Assembly (NCBI GenBank): GCA_020061515.1 | Contig: JAGUYC010000005.1 | Location: 1 to 36,918, forward strand | Length of the DNA stretch: 36,918 bases | Origin: Gemmatimonadota bacterium | GTDB lineage: Bacteria > Orphanbacterota > Orphanbacteria > Orphanbacterales > Orphanbacteraceae | Direction of reading: 5' to 3' | The notes under the pieces: generated by a model | The model's input: only the letters and a program-made list of their open reading frames with translations | What the model was told of the DNA's origin: nothing | Database searches by the model: none | Made by a program: the position numbers and the translations under genes | In this document: one piece after another, positions 1 to 10,093 of the stretch | Position numbering within the stretch: position 1 is the first letter of the stretch | Layout: the number at the start of each line of letters is the position of its first letter

Positions 1-676
1 ATTCCCGGCCGTCGCCCGATGGAATCCGCCGCCCGTCGGGCCTGTCCGACACACTCAAAGGGCTGGCCGTGGACCCGGATGAGGTTTTCATGAAGGACAG
101 GACTGCAGCGTCACCAAAAGGCGCCTCAGCAGGGTTCTCTTGCGCTCGGAGCGCCTCAACCATCGCACGTCCGAAAGCAGGTTCCGGGTGCTCGTCCTCC
201 AGAACGGAGCGGAGCCAAGCCCCGAATGCGGCGTCAGGGTCTGGTGCACCCGACTCGGCAATGGCCATCTTCTTCGCCTGAACGAGCCTGGCGAGCAGGC
301 GACTGAGACCAGGGATCGATTCCTCGGGTAGAAGAAGCGATTTCACGACAGCCCGGTAAAGCACGAGTGGGACGGAGAAGCTGAGGCCAGCCGAGCAAGG
401 CACGTAGGAAGTCGCGTAGTTTTCAGTGCGCGCTCTCTGTGACAAAGCCAAGAGGAAATGGGTCTTCCCGCCTCCGTAGGGCGCCAGCACGAGCTTGAAG
501 TGAGCGTGCCGTCGAGAGAGGTCTTGGAAGTAAGATCGAGCAATCCGGTCGATCCATGGATTCAGACCAACTGTGTAGCGTGGAAGGACCTCCGCTGCCA
601 GGCGGGGATCAGCAGGGGGTTTGCCTTCCTCGCCCAGCCTCGCCCACAAGTCTCGTGCGGACTCTGAGTTCATCAT
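1..676 (-). CDS. BrxC/BrxD-like (DUF2791-type) P-loop ATPase, N-terminal part, cut by window edge
   Basis: The frame is open from ATG at 676 to the left edge, giving about 225 residues, so the C-terminal part is missing. The N-terminus has a P-loop at residues 65-73 (A-P-Y-G-G-G-K-T-H). The Y-G-x-G-K-[ST]-H form, rather than a plain GxxxxGK[ST], is typical of the BrxC/BrxD ATPase family (PF10923, formerly DUF2791) known from BREX phage-defence loci. The first glycine of the Walker A motif is Ala here. An AGGAG that overlaps the upstream gene's stop codon lies 11 nt before the ATG, so translation is probably coupled. A second ATG follows directly at 673. The Walker B region would lie beyond the edge. 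The last 35 or so residues are Ser/Arg/Gly-rich and look less like a folded domain; a frameshift there cannot be excluded. Family assignment is from motif and context only. Confidence 0.7.
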   Translation of the reverse strand, partial: MMNSESARDLWARLGEEGKPPADPRLAAEVLPRYTVGLNPWIDRIARSYFQDLSRRHAHFKLVLAPYGGGKTHFLLALSQRARTENYATSYVPCSAGLSFSVPLVLYRAVVKSLLLPEESIPGLSRLLARLVQAKKMAIAESGAPDPDAAFGAWLRSVLEDEHPEPAFGRAMVEALRAQENPAEAPFGDAAVLSFMKTSSGSTASPLSVSDRPDGRRIPSGDGRE

Positions 677-690
677 GGCCAGTCAAACTC

Positions 691-1872
691 CTACTTGAGC
701 AAGCTCATCACTTCCTTGACGTATTGCCGAACAGCCCCAGGATCGATTCTTTCTGCATAGTCCTTGGCCTTGGTCGCAAAGAGCGATCGCGCGACTATTA
801 TGTCCTCCGTGCATACCCCGGCTTCGCTTGCTAGATCGAGGAGCCGATCAAGTAGTCTTTCGTAGAACGCGCACTTCCCCGGCCCCGGGTCGGTCAGTTC
901 GTCAAGACTCATCCAGATCGCTCTTGGATTCGGAAGGTCTTGACCCTCGTACTGAAGCCCGAGGCGCTCGATTCGCTGTGCAAGTGCGGCCAGTTCGCGC
1001 CGCGCCATCGGAAGAAAATCCTCGACCACAGCGTAGTAGATTGCGCAACCGTGGAGTCCTCCGATCGCGACGTAGTCGGCAAGATTTCGCAGATTTGCGA
1101 AGTGAATCATTCGAGCCCGGAAACCAAGGCCTTCTAGCGACAGGCTCTGCTCTGTTTCGTCGAAGAGAACGACGAGGCCACGGCATCCAATGGACTTCGG
1201 CAGGGAGCAGGCAGATCGAAGCCAGGCGCCGGCGTTCCTCTTGCCTAGCCTTCCCAGTGGCCGAGGCAAATCTGGATTCCTCTTAGCGAGTTCCGAGAGC
1301 CTGAGGCCGACCGGCGGTCTTCCGACGAGGAGGTCATGCAACTCCTCCTTGACGCCGTGAATCGTCCCTGCTCTCGACTGCGTTCTCGCATATGCAAGAA
1401 CGAGATTTCGGAATTCTCTGCACAGCCACTGATCGCCCTCGATTCCGCTCATTCGAAGTCTTCGCGTCTCGTGCGGCGCATTCTCGAGAGCATTCGCGAG
1501 GAGAAAACCGATCCCGAGCCGAGGGGTCTGTCCGTCCTCTCCGGGGGCAGTCCGGAAGCTACGGACGAGCTGGCGATAGGTCTCGTCAAACGCGGCGAAG
1601 GGCTTGCTGCGAGAGTGGCAGTCAATATAGGCTGTCGCGCAGCCATTACGAAGAGCAGTCGCCTCAATGGTTCTCAGGACATGAGACTTGCCTCGGCCGT
1701 ATGCTGCCTCGATGAAACGGATTTCGCAACCCCCGGAATCCAGATAAGGCAAAGTCTCGTCTGCGAACCGGGAGAGCAAACCATCGAGGCCGACCGAGAT
1801 TCGTAACGCAGTCTGGCCATCGGGTGGTATGCCCAGTGTTCCGAGCAACTCGAGGGAGTCACGGGCGTTCAA
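691..1872 (-). CDS. BrxD-like (DUF2791-type) ATP-binding protein
   Basis: This is a 393-residue AAA-type ATPase. The Walker A region at residues 56-64 reads A-A-Y-G-R-G-K-S-H, again with Ala in place of the first Gly. The Walker B strand G-L-V-V-L-F-D-E spans 232-239 and is followed by T-E-Q. A later G-L-H-G...Y-Y-A-V-V-E-D-F-L segment and an A-L-A-Q-R-I-E-R-L stretch match the layout I know from BrxD (a sensor strand, then 'LAQR'). Such proteins bind ATP and probably act on DNA with partner proteins; BrxD's exact role is not settled. The start is TTG, sharing two bases with the upstream gene's TGA (TTGA), and the next gene begins 14 nt after its stop, so the three genes form an operon. This protein and the downstream ATPase differ clearly outside the P-loop, so they are diverged paralogues rather than a recent duplication. 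Confidence 0.75.
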   Translation of the reverse strand: MNARDSLELLGTLGIPPDGQTALRISVGLDGLLSRFADETLPYLDSGGCEIRFIEAAYGRGKSHVLRTIEATALRNGCATAYIDCHSRSKPFAAFDETYRQLVRSFRTAPGEDGQTPRLGIGFLLANALENAPHETRRLRMSGIEGDQWLCREFRNLVLAYARTQSRAGTIHGVKEELHDLLVGRPPVGLRLSELAKRNPDLPRPLGRLGKRNAGAWLRSACSLPKSIGCRGLVVLFDETEQSLSLEGLGFRARMIHFANLRNLADYVAIGGLHGCAIYYAVVEDFLPMARRELAALAQRIERLGLQYEGQDLPNPRAIWMSLDELTDPGPGKCAFYERLLDRLLDLASEAGVCTEDIIVARSLFATKAKDYAERIDPGAVRQYVKEVMSLLK

Positions 1873-2759
1873 TCAGACCCCGCCTTCTCTATTCTCAGCA
1901 CAGCCAATGTCTCAACCGAGCTCTCGACGCTTTCTAGACTCGGTAGAGTCATCGTCTGTCCCTGCATCACGGTGTTCATCGCCGGAGTCTGAGTGCGCAA
2001 CCTCTCGCGGCCGATTTCCCATCCCCTCTCGCCAAACCTGGCCAGGTCGAACACGAACTGAGCCGAAGAATAGGACTGAAAGTGCTTGGAGTCGGGGTGC
2101 GCTATGAAGTCGCGCTTCTTGAGGTTCCTGACCATTACGGTCAGTGCGTATAGGTTCCGGATCGGAACCCAGCCTTCCCGTGGCTCAAAGTGAAGCTTCG
2201 CCATCTCATAAGCTCGGCGCAGGAGTTTGAAGAATTCCTCCCGATCGAAGGGCTCGCCCTCCATGCGTTGGTGTAACTCCGTGATTTCACGAAAAAGCCG
2301 ACCACCATCGACCTCGGAGATCTCTGCAGCGATTTCGCTGCCCAGACTGATTCTGGCCTTTGGCCCGGCGTACCGGATCTCAAACGGGCCCACCCGGTCG
2401 TATTCTCCGAACCGCCGACTTCGAATCCCTTCCTTCTTCGCCGCGGCATGAAGCGCTTCGCGCCTGCTATCCAGGGCCCTGTGGAGGTGGTCTGTCGTCG
2501 TCTGGAGTCGCTGCCTAAGCTCATCCGCAAGTTGTGGCATGGCGACAGCCTGGGCCGCATTCATCGCTTCCAGGACCGTTGCTGCGGTCTTCTCGGTCTT
2601 TTCGTCACCAAGTTTGACGAGATTAGTTAGCGCCCGACCCAGGGCGTTGACCCGAAGGGCGATCTCCTTCAGACCCGCAGCCGCTTGTTCTTTGGTCGCT
2701 CCCTCGAGGGTCATCTGCTTTGTGGGTGGCGCGCCTTCCTTCTCTGGACGTTTCGCCAC
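1869..2759 (-). CDS. Hypothetical protein, first gene of the DUF2791-ATPase operon
   Basis: I do not recognise this 296-residue protein. The chosen GTG start has a near-perfect AAGGAGG 5 nt upstream; the frame stays open to a GTG at 2852 and an ATG at 2774, but neither has a better site. Residues about 15-125 are rich in Ala, Leu, Glu, Lys and Arg with few helix breakers, and look like long helices or a coiled coil. A middle segment near G-P-F-E-I-R-Y-A-G-P looks beta-rich, and a helical C-terminal half contains aromatic motifs (W-V-P-I-R-N-L-Y-A-L). No signal peptide, membrane span or catalytic motif is visible. Its TGA overlaps the TTG start of the first ATPase. By position it may be a structural partner or DNA-binding adaptor for the two ATPases; that is inference. 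Confidence 0.75.
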   Translation of the reverse strand: MAKRPEKEGAPPTKQMTLEGATKEQAAAGLKEIALRVNALGRALTNLVKLGDEKTEKTAATVLEAMNAAQAVAMPQLADELRQRLQTTTDHLHRALDSRREALHAAAKKEGIRSRRFGEYDRVGPFEIRYAGPKARISLGSEIAAEISEVDGGRLFREITELHQRMEGEPFDREEFFKLLRRAYEMAKLHFEPREGWVPIRNLYALTVMVRNLKKRDFIAHPDSKHFQSYSSAQFVFDLARFGERGWEIGRERLRTQTPAMNTVMQGQTMTLPSLESVESSVETLAVLRIEKAGSD

Positions 2760-2853
2760 GAGAACCTCCTTCATGTATCCGGGTGGATAGCCGATGCCGC
2801 GCGACCCGTTCAGAATCCTCGCGTCCGAGAGACGTACCCCGAGCCCAACCACC

Positions 2854-2883
2854 AGTGTACTTGAAGTGCCCCGCTATCCACAA
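2854..2883 (-). promoter_or_regulatory. Possible sigma70-type promoter of the ATPase operon
   Basis: On the minus strand TTGTGG (2883-2878) and TACACT (2859-2854) are 18 nt apart. They match 3 and 4 of 6 consensus bases. Transcription would start near 2847, downstream of the farther GTG at 2852, which supports the GTG at 2759 as the real start. The match is weak and rests on eye alone. Confidence 0.35.
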
Positions 2884-3170
2884 GCAGGTCGTGAGGTTAC
2901 CCGTCCCCGCTTGCTTCTTTCATGCCGAAGGGTCATGGCAAGGACCAGGACGCTACCGCCGTGAGGGCAACATCCTGCGTACCCTCCGGAGCCGGCTCAC
3001 GACGAGACTCGTTCAGGGCAGTTAATCAATTCTCAACGACCCGTCGCCCAACTGACGTCATCGCAGCTGATTAGTCGACTCCTTAACGAGATGCCTCGCA
3101 GAAGCGTCTTCGCACTGATGGCTGGGACCGATCGCGACATCGGGAACCCGGAGTCGTCAACTGCTTGGCC
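2884..3170. other. Intergenic stretch with no supported gene
   Basis: No frame here has both a plausible start signal and protein-like composition. I see no integrase remnant, terminator or long repeat. It separates the ATPase operon from the tRNA-like fragment and tRNA-Asn, and could be the scar of an insertion. Confidence 0.5.
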
Positions 3171-3198
3171 CCAGGTTCGAGTCCCGCCCGGGGTGCCG
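3171..3198 (+). repeat. tRNA 3'-end-like fragment, inverted relative to tRNA-Asn
   Basis: This plus-strand segment has a T-arm core (GGTTCGAGTCC) followed by GCCCGGGG and TGCC, and matches 24 of 28 bases of the 3' end of the tRNA-Asn gene, which is on the opposite strand 59 nt away. No 5' acceptor half, D arm or anticodon arm lies upstream, so it is not a complete tRNA. Such fragments are typical attachment-site scars of elements that integrate at tRNA 3' ends, but the inverted orientation is not what one insertion at this tRNA-Asn would leave. Confidence 0.6.
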
Positions 3199-3257
3199 GG
3201 GAATACGCAAACCCTAACCGATTGATATTGCTGAAGTTGCGCGATGGCTGTCTGGGC

Positions 3258-3332
3258 TGGCTCCCCGGGCAGGACTCGAACCTGCAACCAACCGGTTAAC
3301 AGCCGGTTGCTCTACCATTGAGCTACCGAGGA
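3258..3332 (-). tRNA. tRNA-Asn(GTT)
   Basis: The 75-nt sequence folds as a cloverleaf. The acceptor strands TCCTCGG and CCGGGGA pair with one T-G, the discriminator is G, and CCA is encoded. The D arm is GCTC-AATGGTA-GAGC, the anticodon loop carries GTT between ACCGG/CCGGT strands, and the T arm is GCAGG-TTCGAGT-CCTGC. It is transcribed leftwards, towards the ATPase operon, from a likely promoter about 50 nt upstream. Confidence 0.95.
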
Positions 3333-3387
3333 ACCTGAAGCAAGCCGATTCGTTCGGGACGGCCGGATCGCCGTCCTATCGTTCCTG

Positions 3388-3416
3388 ATTCTATTGCATC
3401 CCGGGCCGAATGAGAA
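3388..3416 (-). promoter_or_regulatory. Probable sigma70-type promoter of tRNA-Asn
   Basis: On the minus strand TTCTCA (3416-3411, 4 of 6 consensus bases) and TAGAAT (3393-3388, 5 of 6) are separated by exactly 17 nt. The start point would be near 3381, leaving a leader of about 48 nt before the mature tRNA. Position and spacing fit a tRNA promoter well. Confidence 0.55.
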
Positions 3417-3470
3417 GCCCCGGGTGCGGATGCCGGATCGCGCCGGCGTCCGCTCGCGGCCGGGGCGTGG

Positions 3471-3947
3471 CTACTTCTCGAAGAGCTCGACCGCGGAGAG
3501 CATCACGTAGCAGTCCGGTTGCGGACAAACGTGCGGCTCCTCGCCCTCCGCGTGCTCGTGCTCGTGAGCGTGATCGCACTCCTGCTCCGCTTGCGCCGCG
3601 ACCGGCTCCACCACCACGAGCTCACCCTCGACTCGAATCCGCGCCCCTTCGCACGTGGTCGGCACGGTCACCGAATGATCCGCGCTCTTCGCATAGATCT
3701 TCGCCCCCGAAGAACCTTCCTCGACGAGCGCCCAGCAGCCGGAGCCCTTGCACACGCCCGTCACGGTGCCTTGCACCAAGACCGTTTCCCCTGCGAAGGC
3801 GCGCGGGTTTTCCATCAGCCCTGCGATCGATACGGACGCCTTCGCGCCGATCGGCTCGCCGGCCTTGTAGTAGGGTTCGCTTCCGCATGCGACGGCGATC
3901 AGTCCGACAAGCGCGATCGCACCAATCGTCATCCGCGTTCTCTTCAT
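3471..3947 (-). CDS. Lipoprotein with DUF4920-like OB-fold domain and His/Cys-rich tail
   Basis: The ATG at 3947 has GAGGAG 10 nt upstream; an in-frame ATG at 3965 lacks such a site. The 158-residue product starts with basic residues and a hydrophobic stretch ending in I-A-V-A-C (Cys21), a probable lipobox, so it is likely a periplasmic membrane-anchored lipoprotein. The body (G-E-P-I-G-A...G-T-V-T-G-V-C-K-G-S-G-C-W) matches the pattern I know from DUF4920: a small beta-barrel with a C-x4-G-C-W motif. Unlike the usual family, it has a late insert with four His between acidic residues (H-A-H-E-H-E-H) and Cys pairs C-P-Q-P-D-C, suggesting metal binding. Function is unknown. It follows the ribosomal block but is separated from it by two hairpins. 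Confidence 0.75.
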   Translation of the reverse strand: MKRTRMTIGAIALVGLIAVACGSEPYYKAGEPIGAKASVSIAGLMENPRAFAGETVLVQGTVTGVCKGSGCWALVEEGSSGAKIYAKSADHSVTVPTTCEGARIRVEGELVVVEPVAAQAEQECDHAHEHEHAEGEEPHVCPQPDCYVMLSAVELFEK

Positions 3948-4015
3948 CGAGCGAAATCTCCTCATCGAGTGTGTCGCCGGCCTCGCGTTCCCCGCGAAGC
4001 CCGATCGAGGTCTCC

Positions 4016-4035
4016 GGCGTCCGAATCGGGACGCC
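4016..4035 (-). terminator. Second GC-rich hairpin downstream of rplQ
   Basis: GGCGTCC and GGACGCC form a 7-bp perfect stem around a 6-nt loop, 9 nt beyond the first hairpin. No U-run follows. It may back up termination or protect the 3' end of the alpha-operon mRNA. Confidence 0.4.
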
Positions 4036-4044
4036 CAACAGCAA

Positions 4045-4066
4045 GTCCCCGCGCCTCCGCGGGGAC
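4045..4066 (-). terminator. GC-rich hairpin downstream of rplQ, probable end of the ribosomal transcript
   Basis: GTCCCCGCG and CGCGGGGAC pair perfectly over 9 bp with a GAGG loop on the minus strand. The following bases (TTGCTGTTGGG) are only mildly T-rich, so it is not a textbook intrinsic terminator. Its place 30 nt after the last gene of the block makes a termination or RNA-stabilising role likely. Confidence 0.5.
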
Positions 4067-4096
4067 CGCATTTCCAAACCGACCGGCGTCTCCGCC

Positions 4097-4585
4097 TTAT
4101 CCCTTCTCGGCAGGCGCGGACTCTGTCGGCGCTCCCGCCCGCGCCGCGGCCTCTTCCTCCGCGCGCTGCCGCTCTTCCTTCTTCTTCTTCTTCTTCTCGA
4201 CCTTCTCCTCGAGCTCCTCGATCTTTGGTTCGAGATCCACGAGCTCGATGAGAGAAAGCGGAGCGTTGTCGCCGCGCCTTCGCCCGGCCTTAAGAATACG
4301 CGTGTAGCCGCCGTTCCGGTTCGCGTACGCCGGAGCGATCGTGTCGAAAAGCTCCCGCACGACCTTCGCGTCCGTGATCGTGCGCATCACGAGCCGCCGC
4401 GCGTGAAGGTCGCCCCTCTTCGCCAGCGTGACGAGCTTCTCGGCCAGCTTTCGGAGCTCCTTCGCCCGCGCGTCGGTCGTTTCGATCCTCCGCTTCCGGA
4501 AGAGCGACGTGACCATGTTCCGGAACATCGCCTCCCGGTGGCTCGTGCTCATGTTGAGGTGCCGGCCGGCTTTCTGATGTCGCAT
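4097..4585 (-). CDS. rplQ: 50S ribosomal protein L17 with charged C-terminal extension
   Basis: The start [10 protein letters not shown] and the segment [11 protein letters not shown] are diagnostic for L17, which binds 23S rRNA near the peptide exit side of the large subunit. The core ends near residue 118. The remaining 45 or so residues are a Lys/Glu/Ala-rich low-complexity tail (starting P-K-I-E-E-L-E-E-K) that makes the protein 162 residues long, against about 120-130 in many bacteria. It is the last gene of the block, 20 nt after rpoA, as in the usual alpha operon. Confidence 0.97.
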
Positions 4586-4605
4586 CGCGCGAGACCCTTC
4601 CTTCC

Positions 4606-5613
4606 CTAGGTTTCGTTCGGCTCGGTGCTGCCGCTCGCCTGCCCGGAGAGGATCTCATCCAGGTTCATCCCGAACGAAAGATTCATGCCTCTCAGAATAT
4701 CCGAGATCTCCTTCAGCGATTTCCGGCCGAAGTTCCTGTACTTCAGCATGTCGGTCTCGGTCTTCTGAACGAGATCGCCGATCGTGCGGATCTGCGCCGA
4801 CTGGAGACAGTTGCTCGAGCGGACGGAGAGCTCCAGCTCGTCGACGCTTCGCGAGAAGAGATCGCGCAGCTCCTCGACCTTCTCGTCCTCGACTTCTTCG
4901 TCTTCCGAAGTCGGCTCCTGCTCGAAGGTCATGAAGAGCACGAGATGATCCTTCAAGATCTTGGCCGCGTGCGAGACCGCGTCCTCGGGGGTGATCGTTC
5001 CGTTCGTCCACACCTCGAGGATCAGCCGGTCGTAGTCGGTCTTCTGGCCGACGCGCGTCTCCTCGACGCGAAACGTCACGCGCCGCACCGGCGAGTAGAG
5101 GGAATCGACCGCGACCACGCCGATCGGGGAGTCCTCGATCAGCTGCTGATCCGCCGCCACGTACCCCCGGCCCACGTTCACGCCGACCTGCATCTTGAGC
5201 GAGGCGCCCTTGTCGAGCGACGCGATGTGCAGGGTCGGGTTCAGAAGCGCCATCCCCGCGGGGACCTCGAAGAGATCCGCCGTTACCTCGCCCGGGCCCT
5301 CGACGTCGAGCACCAGCGGCTTCGGCTCGTCGCCGTCGAGCCGGATCACAAGGTTCTTTAGGTTCAAAACGAGATCCGTGACGTCCTCGACCACGCCCGG
5401 AAGGGTCGTGAACTCGTGCCGGGCGCCCTCGATCTTCACGTAGTGCGGAGCCGCTCCCTGCAGGGAAGAGAGGAGCACGCGACGGAGAGCGCTCCCGAGA
5501 GTGGTTCCGTATCCTCTCTCGAGCGGCTCGGCGACGAACTTTCCGTACGTCTCCGTGTGCGTCTCTTCTTCCCTCTGGATCGCCTTCGGCATCTGGAGAC
5601 TCTTCCACTTCAT
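4606..5613 (-). CDS. rpoA: DNA-directed RNA polymerase alpha subunit
   Basis: Alpha dimerises through its N-terminal domain (residues about 1-225; [19 protein letters not shown] is characteristic) and nucleates assembly with beta and beta'. The C-terminal domain (about 255-320; R-T-I-G-D-L-V and [10 protein letters not shown]) contacts UP elements and activators. An acidic linker (S-E-D-E-E-V-E-D-E) joins them. ATG at 5613 gives 335 residues and lies 19 nt after rpsD; the frame stays open to 5655, and an internal ATG at 5592 with GGAAGAG 8 nt upstream is a possible alternative. It sits between rpsD and rplQ as usual. Confidence 0.97.
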
Positions 5614-5632
5614 CTTACGCCGCCCCCATGGA

Positions 5633-6262
5633 CTACTTCGAGTAAAGCTCCACAATGAGCTGCTCGTTCACATTCGCCGGAATCGCGTCGCGAGCGGGCA
5701 TCTCCATAATGTGGCCGGAGAGCTTGTCGATATCCCGGGAGATCCACGCGCAGAGCTGGTCCTCCCGGCGCCGTTCCTTCGCTTCCTTGAAGACGTGAAG
5801 CGATCGGCTCTTCTCGGCGACCTGCACGACTTCCCCTCTCACGAGCGCGTACGAGGGGATGGTGACCTTGCGCCCGTTGACCTGGAAGTGGCCGTGCCGG
5901 ACGAGCTGCCGCGCCGCCGAGCGGGAGGGCGCGAACCCGAGACGGAAGACGACATTGTCGAGGCGCCTCTCGAGCAGCCGGAGCAGGTTGTCTCCCGTCA
6001 CGCCCGGCTGCCGCTCGGCTTCCGCGAAGTATTTCCGGAACTGCCTCTCGAAAATGCCGTAGATCCTTCTCGCTTTCTGTTTCTCCCTGAGCTGCAATGC
6101 GAAGTCGGATTGCTTCCGGCGCGGACGCTGGCCGTGCTCGCCGGGAGCATACCCCCGCCGATCGAAGCTGCACCTCGGGGAGAAACAACGATCCCCCTTC
6201 AGGAAGAGCTTCGCCCCTTCCCGCCGGCACAACTTGCACTTCGCGTCGGTGTATCGTGCCAT
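5633..6262 (-). CDS. rpsD: 30S ribosomal protein S4 (zinc-binding form)
   Basis: The 209-residue protein is a primary 16S rRNA binder in the small-subunit body. It keeps four cysteines near the N-terminus (C9, C12, C26, C31), so it is the zinc-binding C+ form. The S4 RNA-binding domain follows at about 98-160 ([24 protein letters not shown]). The C-terminal segment [12 protein letters not shown] is conserved. In many bacteria S4 represses the alpha operon by binding its leader; no such leader was identified here. Confidence 0.98.
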
Positions 6263-6307
6263 TCCCTTCCTCCGTGCGAACCGACGGCCCCCCGGCCGGG
6301 GCTCACT

Positions 6308-6700
6308 CTAAACGCGGCGCCTCTTCGGGGGCCGGCAACCGTTGTGCGGAATCGGCGTCACGTCCCGAATCGACGAGATGTCGAGGCCCGCAGCCTGCAA
6401 AGAGCGGATCGCAGCCTCGCGCCCCGCTCCCGGTCCTTTCACAAGAACCTCCACCTTCCTCAGCCCCATGGAGAGCGCCACCTTCGCTGACTCCTCGGCG
6501 GCGAGCTGCGCCGCGAACGGCGTGCTCTTCTTTGAGCCCTTAAACCCGATCCGGCCGGCGCTCGACCACGAAACAACGTTCCCCTTCGAGTCCGTAATCG
6601 TCACGATCGTGTTGTTGAACGTGGACTGAATGTGCGCCACGCCATACGGCTCGACCCGTTTGTCTTTGCGTTTCTTCTTCTTTTCCTTCGGGGGTGCCAA
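6308..6700 (-). CDS. rpsK: 30S ribosomal protein S11
   Basis: The 130-residue protein lines the mRNA exit side of the platform. Conserved segments are visible: [12 protein letters not shown], the [19 protein letters not shown] run, and the C-terminal [16 protein letters not shown]. The N-terminus adds a Lys-rich stretch. The start is TTG, preceded 7 nt upstream by GAGAGGAGG, a strong ribosome-binding site that makes the weak codon credible. It lies between rpsM and rpsD in the usual order. Confidence 0.98.
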
Positions 6701-6754
6701 GCGCGGACCTCCTCTCCCCGGTCTTCCCGCGGAGCGTTGCGGGGCCGACCCGCT

Positions 6755-7129
6755 TTACGACTTCTTCTTCATGACGCCCGAACCCTTCTTCGGGCCTTTT
6801 CGCGTGCGCGCGTTTGTGCTCGTTCTCTGACCGCGCACGGGGAGTCCTCTCCGGTGCCGGAGGCCGCGATACGTCCCGATGTCCATGATCCGCTTGATGT
6901 TCATGGCCACCTCGTTGCGCAGGGCTCCCTCGACCTTGTGCTCGTTCTCGATGATCTTTCGGAGCTTGGCCGTGTCTTCCTCCGACAAGTTCTTCGCGCG
7001 GAGATCCGGGTTCACGCCCGCCGCCGCGAGAATCTTTCGCGACGTCGAGGACCCGATCCCGTAGATGTAGGTCAGAGCGACCTCGATGCGCTTCTCGGCC
7101 GGGAGATCGACCCCAGCAATACGGGCCAC
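6755..7129 (-). CDS. rpsM: 30S ribosomal protein S13
   Basis: S13 sits in the head of the small subunit and touches the P-site tRNA and the large subunit. The opening A-R-I-A-G-V-D-L-P, the helix-hairpin-helix T-Y-I-Y-G-I-G and the basic tail with [16 protein letters not shown] are diagnostic. Length is 124 residues. The start is GTG with GGAGG 8 nt upstream. It follows rpmJ by 32 nt. Confidence 0.98.
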
Positions 7130-7161
7130 CGGCGACCCTCCTTTCCTCGAATCTTAAAGCA

Positions 7162-7278
7162 TCACTGCTGTCTTTGTTTGTGTTTCGGGTTCTTCTTGCA
7201 GATAACCCGCACGACTCCGTTTCGTTTCACGATCTTGCAGTTCTCGCAGATCTTCTTGACCGACGTCCGCACCTTCAT
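7162..7278 (-). CDS. rpmJ: 50S ribosomal protein L36 (zinc-binding form)
   Basis: This is a 38-residue gene, with ATG at 7278 and TGA at 7162. The product begins [11 protein letters not shown] and keeps the zinc ribbon ligands Cys11, Cys14, Cys27 and His33, so it is the zinc-dependent form rather than the C- paralogue. L36 is the smallest large-subunit protein and organises 23S rRNA near the A-site side. It lies between infA and rpsM, the normal place. Confidence 0.97.
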
Positions 7279-7313
7279 CGCAACTCACCTCGCATCCGCG
7301 TCCGGGTCCGCTT

Positions 7314-7532
7314 CTACTTGTATCGATAAATGATCCGGCCGCGGCTGAGGTCGTACGGAGACAGCTCGACCGTGACCTTGTCCCCGGGCAGGATTCGAAT
7401 GAAATGCATGCGAATCTTCCCGGAGATATGGGCCAGGACTCGATGGCCGTTCTCGAGTTCCACCCGGAACATCGCGTTCGGGAGGGGCTCGATCACGGTT
7501 CCCTCGACCTGCACCGCCTGTTCTTTCGCCAT
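7314..7532 (-). CDS. infA: Translation initiation factor IF-1
   Basis: The 72-residue product is a single S1-like OB fold. The [16 protein letters not shown] segment and the [17 protein letters not shown] motif are those of IF-1, which binds the ribosomal A site during initiation. ATG at 7532 is preceded by GGGAGGAAGG. It starts 9 nt after map, in the usual map-infA-rpmJ order. Confidence 0.98.
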
Positions 7533-7541
7533 CCTTCCTCC

Positions 7542-8285
7542 CTAGCTCGTGAGGATGTCGGGGCCGTTCTTGCGCACGGCGACCGTGTGCTCGAAGTGCG
7601 CGCTGAGCGACCGGTCCGCGGTCACCACGGTCCAATCATCCTCGAGGACCCGCACGTCGGGACCGCCCGCGTTCACCATCGGCTCGATCGCGAGGACCAT
7701 CCCCTCTCGAAGACGGATTCCCTTTCCGGGACTCCCGTAGTTCGGGACCTGCGGGTCCTCGTGCATGTTGCGGCCGATGCCGTGTCCGACCAGCTTCCGG
7801 ACGACCGAGAACCCGTGCGCCTCCACCTCGCTCTGCACTGCGTGCGAGATGTCGCCGAGACAGTTCCCGGGACGCGCTCTCTCGATTCCCTTGTAAAGCG
7901 CCGCGCGCGTCGCCTCGAGAAGCCTCCTCGCTTCGTCGCCGATCTCCCCGACCGGGAACGTCGCCGCAGAATCTCCGTGGAAGCCGTTCTTGTACGCGCC
8001 CACGTCGATTCCGACGATGTCTCCCTCCTTCAACACCCTCTTGCCGGGTATCCCGTGCACGACCTCCTCGTTGATCGAGGCGCAGATGCTCGCGGGATAC
8101 CCGTTGTATCCCTTGAAGGACGGCTCCGCGCCGCGCGATCGGATGTGCGCGGCGATCAGCTCGTCCAGCTCCTCCGTCGTCACACCCGGAGCGACCTTCT
8201 CGGCCACGAGGCGAAGCGCGCTCGCGACGATCGCCCCGCTCTCCCGCATCCTCTCGATCTCCTCGTCCCTCTTCAGAATGATCAT
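7542..8285 (-). CDS. map: Methionine aminopeptidase, type I
   Basis: This metalloenzyme removes the initiator methionine from nascent proteins. The 247-residue length fits the bacterial type Ia form without an N-terminal extension. All five metal ligands are visible: Asp94 and Asp105 (I-D-V-G-A...H-G-D), His168 (G-H-G-I-G), Glu201 (A-I-E-P-M) and Glu232 (A-H-F-E-H-T); His77 is also kept. It starts 16 nt after secY. In many bacteria adk stands between these two genes, and it is absent here. Confidence 0.98.
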   Translation of the reverse strand: MIILKRDEEIERMRESGAIVASALRLVAEKVAPGVTTEELDELIAAHIRSRGAEPSFKGYNGYPASICASINEEVVHGIPGKRVLKEGDIVGIDVGAYKNGFHGDSAATFPVGEIGDEARRLLEATRAALYKGIERARPGNCLGDISHAVQSEVEAHGFSVVRKLVGHGIGRNMHEDPQVPNYGSPGKGIRLREGMVLAIEPMVNAGGPDVRVLEDDWTVVTADRSLSAHFEHTVAVRKNGPDILTS

Positions 8286-8301
8286 GCCGCTCCCGCAGCC
8301 A

Positions 8302-9624
8302 TTACCGCCGCCCGCGGAGCCGTCCTTTCTTCATGAAGCCGTCGTAATGCCGCATCAACAGGTGCGACTCGATCTGCTGCAAGGTGTCCAGACCGACGCC
8401 GACGACGATCAGAAGGCTCGTCCCCCCGAAATAGAACGGGACATTGAACCGGCTAATCAGGAAGATCGGCAGGATCGTGATGAGAGCGAGGAAGATCCCT
8501 CCCGGGAGCGTGATCCGTGTGAGGATTCGGTCGATGTACTCGGACGTCCTCTTGCCCGGGCGGATTCCCGGAATGAACCCGCCGTACTTCCTCATGTTGT
8601 CCGCGAGATCCGCGGGGTTGAAGATGATCGCCGTATAGAAGTACGCGAAGAAGACGATCACCACCGAATACGCGATATTGTACAGCGCCGTGTCCGGCGC
8701 GAAGAGGTTCGTGAGACTCTGAAACGCCTCGCTGTTGCGGAAGAACATCGTGGCCGCCGTCGAGGGGAACATCAGAACCGATTGGGCGAAGATGATCGGG
8801 ATGACGCCCGCGGTGTTCACCCGGAGCGGGATGTGCGTGCTCTGCCCGCCGTACACCTTGCGCCCCACGATGCGCTTCGCGTATTGAACGGGAATCCGCC
8901 TTTGTCCCTGCGTGATCATGATCACCGCCGCGGTGATCGCGACCATCACGATGATGAGAAACGCCATGAGGAACGGGGAGAGCGTTCCCGCTCGGAGCAT
9001 GGCGAATGTCGTAAGGGCGTCGATCGGGAATTGCGCGACGATTCCGATGAAGATGATCAGCGAGATCCCGTTCCCGATCCCCCGCTCCGTGATCTGTTCG
9101 CCGAGCCACATGATGAAGACCGTTCCGGACGTCATCGTGAGAACCGTCAGGAAGCGGAATGCCCACCCGGTCACGGGAACGACGGGAGCGGTTTGGTCTC
9201 CGACGGGAACGGTGAGGCTCTCGAGGAAGATGCTGATCCCATAGCCCTGGATTATGGAGAGGACAACGGTCCCGTACCGCGTGTACTGGTTGATCTTCCG
9301 CCGGCCTTCCTCGCCTTCCTTCTGGAGTCTCTCGAAATACGGAATCACCGCCGTCAAGAGCTGCAGGATGATCGACGCGCTGATGTTCGGCATGATGCCG
9401 AGCGCGAAGATCGTCGCCTTCGAGAGGTTCCCGCCCGCGAAGAGATCGTACAGCCCGAACAGGGTCCCCTGGTTCTGGCGGAAGAAATACCCGAGCGCCG
9501 CCGTGTCCACGCCGGGTGTGGGCACGTGGCTTCCGATTCGATAGACCACGAGGAGGGCGAGCGTGAAGAGAACGCGCCTCCTGAGCTCCGGTATCTTGAA
9601 GATATTTTGAATCTTGCCGATCAC
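8302..9624 (-). CDS. secY: Preprotein translocase subunit SecY
   Basis: SecY is the channel of the Sec translocon in the inner membrane. The 440 residues hold ten hydrophobic segments with the expected motifs: G-S-H-V-P-T-P-G near the first segment, F-A-L-G-I-M-P-N-I-S-A-S-I-I before the third, and G-I-R-P-G-K-R-T-S-E-Y late in the chain. The start is GTG with GGAAGA shortly upstream. It follows rplO as in the spc operon; its partner secE is encoded upstream of nusG in the same block. No secG is present in the window. Confidence 0.98.
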   Translation of the reverse strand: MIGKIQNIFKIPELRRRVLFTLALLVVYRIGSHVPTPGVDTAALGYFFRQNQGTLFGLYDLFAGGNLSKATIFALGIMPNISASIILQLLTAVIPYFERLQKEGEEGRRKINQYTRYGTVVLSIIQGYGISIFLESLTVPVGDQTAPVVPVTGWAFRFLTVLTMTSGTVFIMWLGEQITERGIGNGISLIIFIGIVAQFPIDALTTFAMLRAGTLSPFLMAFLIIVMVAITAAVIMITQGQRRIPVQYAKRIVGRKVYGGQSTHIPLRVNTAGVIPIIFAQSVLMFPSTAATMFFRNSEAFQSLTNLFAPDTALYNIAYSVVIVFFAYFYTAIIFNPADLADNMRKYGGFIPGIRPGKRTSEYIDRILTRITLPGGIFLALITILPIFLISRFNVPFYFGGTSLLIVVGVGLDTLQQIESHLLMRHYDGFMKKGRLRGRR

Positions 9625-9649
9625 GTTCTCTTCCTTCGTGTCTCGACCG

Positions 9650-10093
9650 TTATTTCAACAGGTTGACCCGGCCCCCGGCCGCCTCGACCTTCTCGCGCGC
9701 CGCGGCGCTCGCAGCGTGCACCGACACGCGAACCGCACTCTCGACGCTCCCCTTGCCGAGCAGTTTGAGCGGCGCGTTCGGATTCCGAATGATCCTCTTC
9801 TCCGCGAGGATCTCGGGAGTGATCTCCTCGATCCCTTCGCAGCGGGCGAGGTCCCCCACGTTCACGATCTGGTACGTCTTGCGAAACGGGTTCTTGAAGC
9901 CGCGCTTCGGGAGACGCCTCTGCAAGGGCATCTGGCCCCCCTCGAACCACGGCTGGACCGTGTTCCGGGCCCACTGGCCTTTCGCGCCCCGCCCGCTCGT
10001 CTTCCCCGTTCCGCTCGCCTCGCCGCGTCCGACGCGCTTCCGCCGCCGAACCGCGCCCGGACCGGGTTTCAGGTTCTCCAGCTTGAAGGCCAT
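9650..10093 (-). CDS. rplO: 50S ribosomal protein L15
   Basis: The Gly/Arg-rich N-terminal half (K-R-V-G-R-G-E-A-S-G-T-G-K-T-S-G-R-G) and the globular C-terminal half with N-V-G-D-L and K-L-L-G-K-G are typical of L15, which helps assemble the large subunit. Length is 147 residues, normal for the family. It begins 3 nt after rpmD ends and precedes secY, the usual arrangement. Confidence 0.97.
   Translation of the reverse strand: MAFKLENLKPGPGAVRRRKRVGRGEASGTGKTSGRGAKGQWARNTVQPWFEGGQMPLQRRLPKRGFKNPFRKTYQIVNVGDLARCEGIEEITPEILAEKRIIRNPNAPLKLLGKGSVESAVRVSVHAASAAAREKVEAAGGRVNLLK

Follow-up and report, generated by a model that had tools for sequence, protein, structure and literature searches.

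Two BrxD-like ATPases and an unrecognised helical partner form a recurrent operon with a candidate role in defence

Genes at the left end of the window

The subject of this analysis is an operon of three minus-strand genes, P0001, P0002 and P0003, at the left end (positions 1-2759) of contig JAGUYC010000005.1 from a Gemmatimonadota bacterium (assembly GCA_020061515.1). The whole of this contig (36,918 bp; G000:C10 in our genome set) was analysed and is referred to here as the window. The assembly comprises 3.32 Mb in 341 contigs and is 91% complete, and the left window edge is the contig end. The first gene encodes the partner P0001 (1869..2759, minus strand), a protein of 296 residues when read from its best start, a GTG at 2757-2759 that lies 5 nt behind a Shine-Dalgarno sequence, AAGGAGG, at 2765..2771 on the same strand; the longest open reading frame has 327 residues and begins at GTG 2852. 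It is followed by P0002 (691..1872, minus strand), a BrxD-like ATPase of the ORC/Cdc6 type with 393 residues, running from TTG 1872 to a stop at 691. Its Walker A motif, AAYGRGKS, lies at 1684..1707 (minus strand; computed from residue 56) and its Walker B motif, VVLFDETE, at 1150..1173 (minus strand; residue 234). The second BrxD-like ATPase, P0003 (2..676, minus strand), begins at ATG 676, carries the Walker A motif APYGGGKT at 461..484 (minus strand; residue 65) and is truncated by the contig end after 225 residues. A first-pass annotation of this DNA had described overlapping stop and start codons in the operon, which is correct for P0001/P0002, where TGA and TTG overlap at 1869-1872, but not for P0002/P0003, which are separated by a 14-nt gap.

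That annotation had also placed both ATPases in the BrxC/BrxD family, and the placement stands: against PF10923, with its gathering cut-off of 22.2 bits, P0002 scores 68.8 bits (E 5.6e-19) and P0003 33.6 bits (E 2.7e-8). Within the family a correction is needed, because both PADLOC and NCBIfam put the two proteins closer to BrxD than to BrxC, with P0002 matching PADLOC BrxD at E 1.2e-16. The window ATPases reach 59.3 and 33.6 bits against the NCBIfam equivalog BREX_BrxD (NF033438), for which 350 bits are needed. Single-sequence structure prediction was poor for this operon, with mean predicted local distance difference test (pLDDT) values of 43.6 for P0001 and 33.8 for P0002. The window carries only the partner and the two ATPases; the helicase that usually follows them elsewhere, if present, lies off the contig.

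Recurrence and composition of the operon

Searching 386 genomes with P0002 returned matches in 16, its own genome included, several of them with two adjacent matches. The neighbourhoods repeated one order: a protein of 260-355 residues, a first ATPase (slot A), a second ATPase (slot B) and mostly then a helicase. With a profile of 13 partners the partner family was found in 17/386 genomes and in 13/390 genomes of one phylum, and with a profile of 24 partners in 19/392 genomes of another phylum, none of these 19 having supplied a profile row. Operons with ATPases are present in 16/386, 12/390 and 17/392 genomes, G207 belonging to two of these sets and G142 having two copies. The phyla of the window, G064, G270, G207 and G278 are represented by 7, 1, 9, 390 and 392 genomes, and the two large phylum groups have no family code in common among the matches listed; it is probable that the operon spans at least five phyla. 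It was not found in six other genomes from the window's own family. Scans of genome contigs for close relatives of P0001 and P0002 found none; the window proteins are probably too diverged for such scans, and it was the whole-genome profile searches that found the family.

Fifty loci were examined by mapping each part of the neighbourhood with its own profile on stop-to-stop frames, and 45 of them (the window and 44 others) are counted as members because their partner match reaches at least 79 bits. Two loci (L062 and L130) were excluded for giving no partner match in the final scan, and three (L087, L088 and L129) for a partner match of just 24-26 bits with no ATPase. In every one of the 45, a slot-A-type ATPase match starts between -84 and +391 nt from the partner match. 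A second ATPase is present in 41, and the other four (L060, L074, L118 and L121) end within 1.1 kb. The recurrence of the trio across genomes, which the first-pass annotation had put forward as a test, is thus observed. The ATPase profiles drew rows from 24 of the 45 loci, and the helicase profiles also drew on some of them. Loci L112-L128 supplied no rows to any profile and constitute a fair test set, although some have a near relative among the profile rows (L026 in the case of L113 and L114); all 17 strong partner matches in this set have an ATPase. Two weak partner matches in the 392-genome set (E 6.9e-5 and 4.6e-4) have none. The PF10923 assignment extends beyond the window, as both ATPases of L031 exceed the cut-off.

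The partner is helical, with a conserved C-terminal domain that shows the pattern QxxxF...Y..AQF.YD in most relatives of P0001 and an N-terminal half that is probably coiled-coil. It had been noted as an unrecognised protein, and P0001 indeed has no Pfam or NCBIfam match over cut-off and no PADLOC match at E <= 1. A profile of 23 other partners, with the window row excluded, recovers the P0001 frame at 83 bits (E 1.2e-23 among 9,039 frames), compared with a best score of 5.5 bits for the same profile against 500 shuffles of P0001. In a phmmer comparison limited to 15 sequences, the first proteins of 12 loci proved homologous to P0001 (8.8e-14 to 1.3e-5); the partner of L039 gave no significant match to P0001 alone. 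On these comparisons the partner would represent a new protein family. An identity with TerB was considered and rejected: hhalign gave a probability of 0.11% between the partner profile and a profile of only two SngA proteins, and three partners scanned with Pfam gave no TerB match.

As judged from phylogeny, slots A and B are old and distinct and keep their identity across loci, with the window as the exception. In a careful tree of 54 ATPases, a branch with support 97/95 sets slot B, the window aside, apart from the rest. The slot-A proteins lie on the opposite side together with BrxD and the Shango ATPase SngB, so that slot A alone is not a clade. The slot-B split recurs in a quick tree of 77 rows with a Shimodaira-Hasegawa-like approximate likelihood ratio (SH-aLRT) support of just 74, and there slot A falls into two parts. 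BrxD is on the slot-A side in both trees. SngB is unstable, being on the A side in the careful tree and on the B side in the quick one, and we draw nothing from its place. Both window ATPases are nearer slot A by profile, P0002 at 126 vs 69 bits and P0003 at 82 vs 47 bits. P0002 sits on a branch of 2.7-2.9 and fits either side: when it is held with slot B, the approximately unbiased (AU) test gives p 0.5. The quick tree puts P0003 with slot A (SH-aLRT 99), and in the careful tree this protein belongs to no starred set; holding it with slot B gives an AU p value of 0.076. The window may have slot A twice, or slots B and A swapped.

The slots also differ in their motifs and domains. The alanine in place of the first Walker A glycine had been noted in both window proteins; it is present in both and is a common slot-A trait rather than an oddity of this locus. 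Of 36 first-type slot-A matches, 19 carry it, P0002 and P0003 among them, and it occurs in none of 34 slot-B matches, where two genes are each counted as two pieces. In the second type of slot A, 7/10 matches have no Walker A motif, including all five that accompany an SNF2 helicase; slot B of the second type retains the motif in 8/8. At the N-terminus of many slot-B proteins, some 50 residues match the Tudor domain of PcrA/UvrD by profile. Against the Protein Data Bank, the slot-B Tudor profile has fragments of PcrA, UvrD or other helicases as its six best matches (E 2.1e-4 to 0.018), and Pfam assigns PcrA_UvrD_tudor to four of eight slot-B members (best 0.0013) and CarD_TRCF_RID to two of the eight. 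The Tudor motif occurs in 19/34 slot-B matches, in 0/36 slot-A matches and in 0/8 of slot B of the second type; neither P0002 nor P0003 has it. In L061 (8391-10697) a single protein of 768 residues holds ATPases A and B, which we take as a sign of joint action.

The end of the operon is more variable. The first-pass annotation had looked to helicases or nucleases nearby as support for a system, and a helicase of some kind follows in 31/45 loci. In 26/45 it is a Ski2-like superfamily 2 (SF2) enzyme of the BrxHI/SngC type and in 5/45 (L061, L084, L085, L086 and L089) an SNF2 helicase, fused in two of these five to a C-terminal Mrr_cat nuclease. Pfam scans of the helicase proteins covered samples of loci; among five Ski2-type helicases compared with PADLOC, the best match is BrxHI for four and SngC for one (best E 9.9e-72). 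A published tree (PMC12278908) groups SngC, BrxHI, DruE and DpdJ in one SF2 clade linked to antiphage immunity. Fourteen loci have no helicase match: six are cut off by the contig end ahead of or within the second ATPase (the window, L060, L074, L116, L118 and L121), in three (L080, L083 and L126) the contig stops within 1.2 kb of that gene, and five are taken up below.

Several variants were seen at this end of the operon. In L036 (5966-10696) the helicase is fused to a superfamily 1 (SF1) Upf1-like helicase with PADLOC similarity to MkoA/MkoC, and in L027 (3-5486) the operon helicase lies within a far longer protein. A DNA methyltransferase (N6_N4_Mtase) occupies the helicase position after the two ATPases in L039 (7443-8870). 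Between slot B and the SNF2 helicase, L084 (5545-6108), L085 (7960-8532), L086 (7708-8400) and L089 (10280-10765) each encode a protein of 161-230 residues, and those of L084, L085 and L086 have no Pfam match.

Genomic site, proposed function and alternatives

On its right the operon adjoins a tRNA-Asn (GTT) gene, placed by ARAGORN at 3258..3332 on the minus strand, and between the two lies an inverted 42-nt copy of the tRNA 3' half (3156..3197, plus strand; 81% complementary to 3259-3300). A sister species, G006, matches window positions 3254-9700 at 94%, and an alignment of window 1-4000 with its contig G006:C12 starts at 3156 (88% over 854 columns). The tRNA-Asn is likely the boundary of a variable site. 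Left of the 3156 breakpoint, other genes adjoin this tRNA-Asn in the sister species (L141; G006:C12, 4001-8207). Among their products are an E1-like enzyme, which matches a SUMO-activating enzyme at E 2e-21, and a JAB-type peptidase, which matches an Rpn11-like protein at E 3e-8. Pairs of an E1-like enzyme and a JAB-type peptidase occur in bacterial ubiquitin-like antiphage operons, and the cargo of the sister species is perhaps such an operon. The G+C content is 0.58-0.60 in window 1-3000, as against 0.60-0.67 elsewhere. Together, the sister's different cargo and the G+C pattern fit a variable site with exchangeable cargo, and this site is the sole site-level support for a defence role. The element made up of the tRNA-Asn 3' half, about 60 nt and the inverted 3' half (window 3156-3332) recurs at G000:C264:15501-15643, G006:C55:1361-1511 and G006:C13:1528-1642. 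The C264 stretch holds no full tRNA, and the element looks like a small att-like or miniature inverted-repeat transposable element (MITE)-like repeat.

We propose, with a probability of roughly 0.55, that this operon (partner, ATPase A, ATPase B and usually a helicase), of which the window holds the first part, is an anti-invader system built on the pattern of the BrxD-BrxHI pair of type 2 BREX and the SngB-SngC pair of Shango, in which a second, anciently diverged ATPase has been added and a new partner replaces TerB. The gene set, its order, the slots, the domains and the motifs are conserved; the role in defence is suggested by the homologous parts and by the variable site beside the tRNA-Asn. 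Under this proposal, ATPases A and B would form a mixed ORC/Cdc6-type AAA+ assembly on DNA, as expected from their family, and the partner might serve as a bridge or sensor, the complex being held inactive until invading DNA is met. The ATPases would then load or activate the SF2 helicase, by which the invader would be unwound or blocked. This step is proposed by analogy with BrxD, described as an AAA+ ATPase of the ORC/Cdc6 type and as a possible loader of BrxHI (PMC12839542). In the SNF2-Mrr subtype, the fused restriction nuclease would be expected to cut the invader. The Tudor domain of many B ATPases could hold the complex on RNA polymerase or on DNA, in which case transcribed invader DNA would perhaps be the target.

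A number of observations weigh against a defence role. The first-pass annotation had offered the operon as a candidate undescribed defence module; the recurrent module stands, but the flanks examined have no clear excess of defence genes. Among 139 flanking proteins from 29 of the 45 loci (those of 900 residues or more excluded), raw counts, without background, for 25 of the 144 families listed include AAA_21 three times, Uma2 twice, PIN twice and N6_Mtase once. None of nine large neighbours matched PADLOC at 1e-10, and one of ten is a GmrSD enzyme. A classic defence island is not supported by these mixed flanks. Six queries against plasmids (P0001, P0002, three other partners and one slot-B protein) gave no match, nor did a slot-A query against phages, and short-pattern scans of viral contigs with P0002, a slot-A alignment and a partner alignment gave no relative. 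Five loci (L029, L039, L059, L078 and L128) have DNA at the helicase position yet no helicase. A further plasmid search, with a slot-A query from L031, matched 676 records. The 60 of these that were listed are labelled BrxD, TerB-linked or plain 'ATP-binding protein' or similar, or bear no label; of three that were opened, two hold TerB-ATPase-helicase sets and one is without annotation.

The mixed and mostly ordinary neighbours seen would also suit an operon for chromosomal genome maintenance, as would the lack of matches in plasmids and viral contigs when partner, slot-B or window sequences were the queries. On this alternative, the ATPases and helicase would work where RNA polymerase or replication forks have stalled, either resolving conflicts or serving transcription-coupled repair; the Tudor domain would anchor them to the polymerase, and the operon would have no function against phages. 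The Tudor domain of PcrA/UvrD type that many loci have in slot B speaks for this alternative; in UvrD the domain governs contact with RNA polymerase (PMC7585439), and it would suit a repair role too. Against a maintenance operon stand the rare and patchy distribution, in which the operon was not found in the six other genomes from the window's family, the helicases closest to BrxHI/SngC among those scanned, the Mrr nuclease fusions and the tRNA-adjoining site that holds different cargo in the sister species. We regard maintenance as unlikely, albeit a serious contender.

The state of the window copy also counts against the proposal. Both window ATPases sit on very long branches (2.6-2.9), and on that ground rapid evolution or decay of this copy is possible. 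Neither another PF10923 match nor a close helicase was found in the 91%-complete genome to which it belongs, the helicase matches there being weak (66 and 35 bits) and none of them beside a PF10923 protein. The match of P0003 to our ATPase profile covers residues 1-191, leaving its final 34 of 225 residues, at the contig edge, outside. These observations would be expected if the copy were a decaying remnant on an island, the family itself being real. Decay is, however, quite improbable for genes in this condition: P0001 and P0002 are full-length and stop-free, the Walker A and B motifs of P0002 are intact, the junctions are tight, the Shine-Dalgarno sequence is good and the partner still matches its family profile strongly.

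A more specific form of the proposed anti-invader system can be put forward, as a tentative possibility only. The operon could define a third lineage of ATPase-loaded helicase defence systems, combining an ancient ORC/Cdc6-type pair with a universal coiled-coil partner. One ATPase would dock on RNA polymerase by means of a Tudor domain like that of UvrD, directing the attack to invader DNA under active transcription, the helicase/nuclease end would be exchangeable (Ski2-type, SF1-fused, SNF2 or SNF2-Mrr), and one ATPase would be able to become a dead regulatory subunit. If the defence proposal is true, a widespread, unnamed system would be added to the BREX/Shango family, along with the new protein family of the partner. 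Two BrxD-like ATPases have remained in distinct slots through a long evolutionary history; one frequently bears a domain of a polymerase-binding type, and in one subtype the other has lost its active site. This makes the subunit roles directly testable, which bears on how BrxD-like ATPases cooperate with their helicases.

Comparison with known systems

The gene order had been noted as not matching BREX, and neither a BREX nor a Shango gene set fits the operon. None of the three findings that the first-pass annotation named as counting against its proposal (no PF10923 match, a full match to a known system, a trio unique to one genome) was obtained. Among the titles and beginnings of abstracts listed from a library with few subscription papers, and in the passages of PMC12839542 consulted, none describes a two-ATPase system of this kind.

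That the operon is instead a divergent Shango or type 2 BREX with the usual gene set is the least probable alternative: the ATPase and helicase families are shared and BrxD lies on the slot-A side of both trees, but TerB is missing by profile comparison, PglZ was not seen in the scanned proteins next to the trio, and two ATPases and a new partner are present in every locus uncut by a contig end. As in type 2 BREX, a BrxHI-type SF2 helicase lies downstream of a BrxD-like PF10923 ATPase in relatives of the window (26/45 loci), the window contig itself ending before this point; unlike BREX, the operon has a second ATPase, in fixed order with the first, and a new partner. PglZ together with BrxC in the operon, as expected of BREX, was not found: in other loci the partner, ATPases and helicase are contiguous, and no neighbouring protein scanned with Pfam is PglZ (for the flanks, among 25 of the 144 families), the left side of the window being off the contig. 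Three ATPase relatives without a partner look different. L037 encodes a protein of 1309 residues with weak PF10923 similarity, probably BrxC, along with PglZ, a BrxD-like ATPase beside it and a helicase; L038 resembles L037 in gene sizes, and L040 has TerB by Pfam.

Shango consists of TerB, an ATPase and a helicase and protects Pseudomonas from phages, modestly on plates (PMC10250203); plasmid NZ_CP031599.1 provides an example with TerB, one ATPase and a helicase. The operon resembles Shango in the order partner, ATPase, helicase, and SngB/SngC are the best or second-best PADLOC match of the proteins scanned. It departs from Shango in that the partner is no TerB-domain SngA, the single SngB is replaced by two ATPases (in the window and 41/45 loci), many B ATPases bear a Tudor domain and SNF2-Mrr variants occur. 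The DUF499-centred BREX-related (BR) systems likewise combine an ORC/Cdc6-type ATPase with a helicase and resemble restriction-modification systems (PMC12839542). By the same account they have one large DUF499/BrxC-like ATPase and a methyltransferase, whereas here there are two small BrxD-like ATPases, with a methyltransferase at the operon position in L039 only. Finally, the N-terminal domain of slot B matches the C-terminal Tudor domain of PcrA/UvrD, their RNA polymerase interaction domain, but in slot B it is joined, at the N-terminus, to an ATPase of another family.

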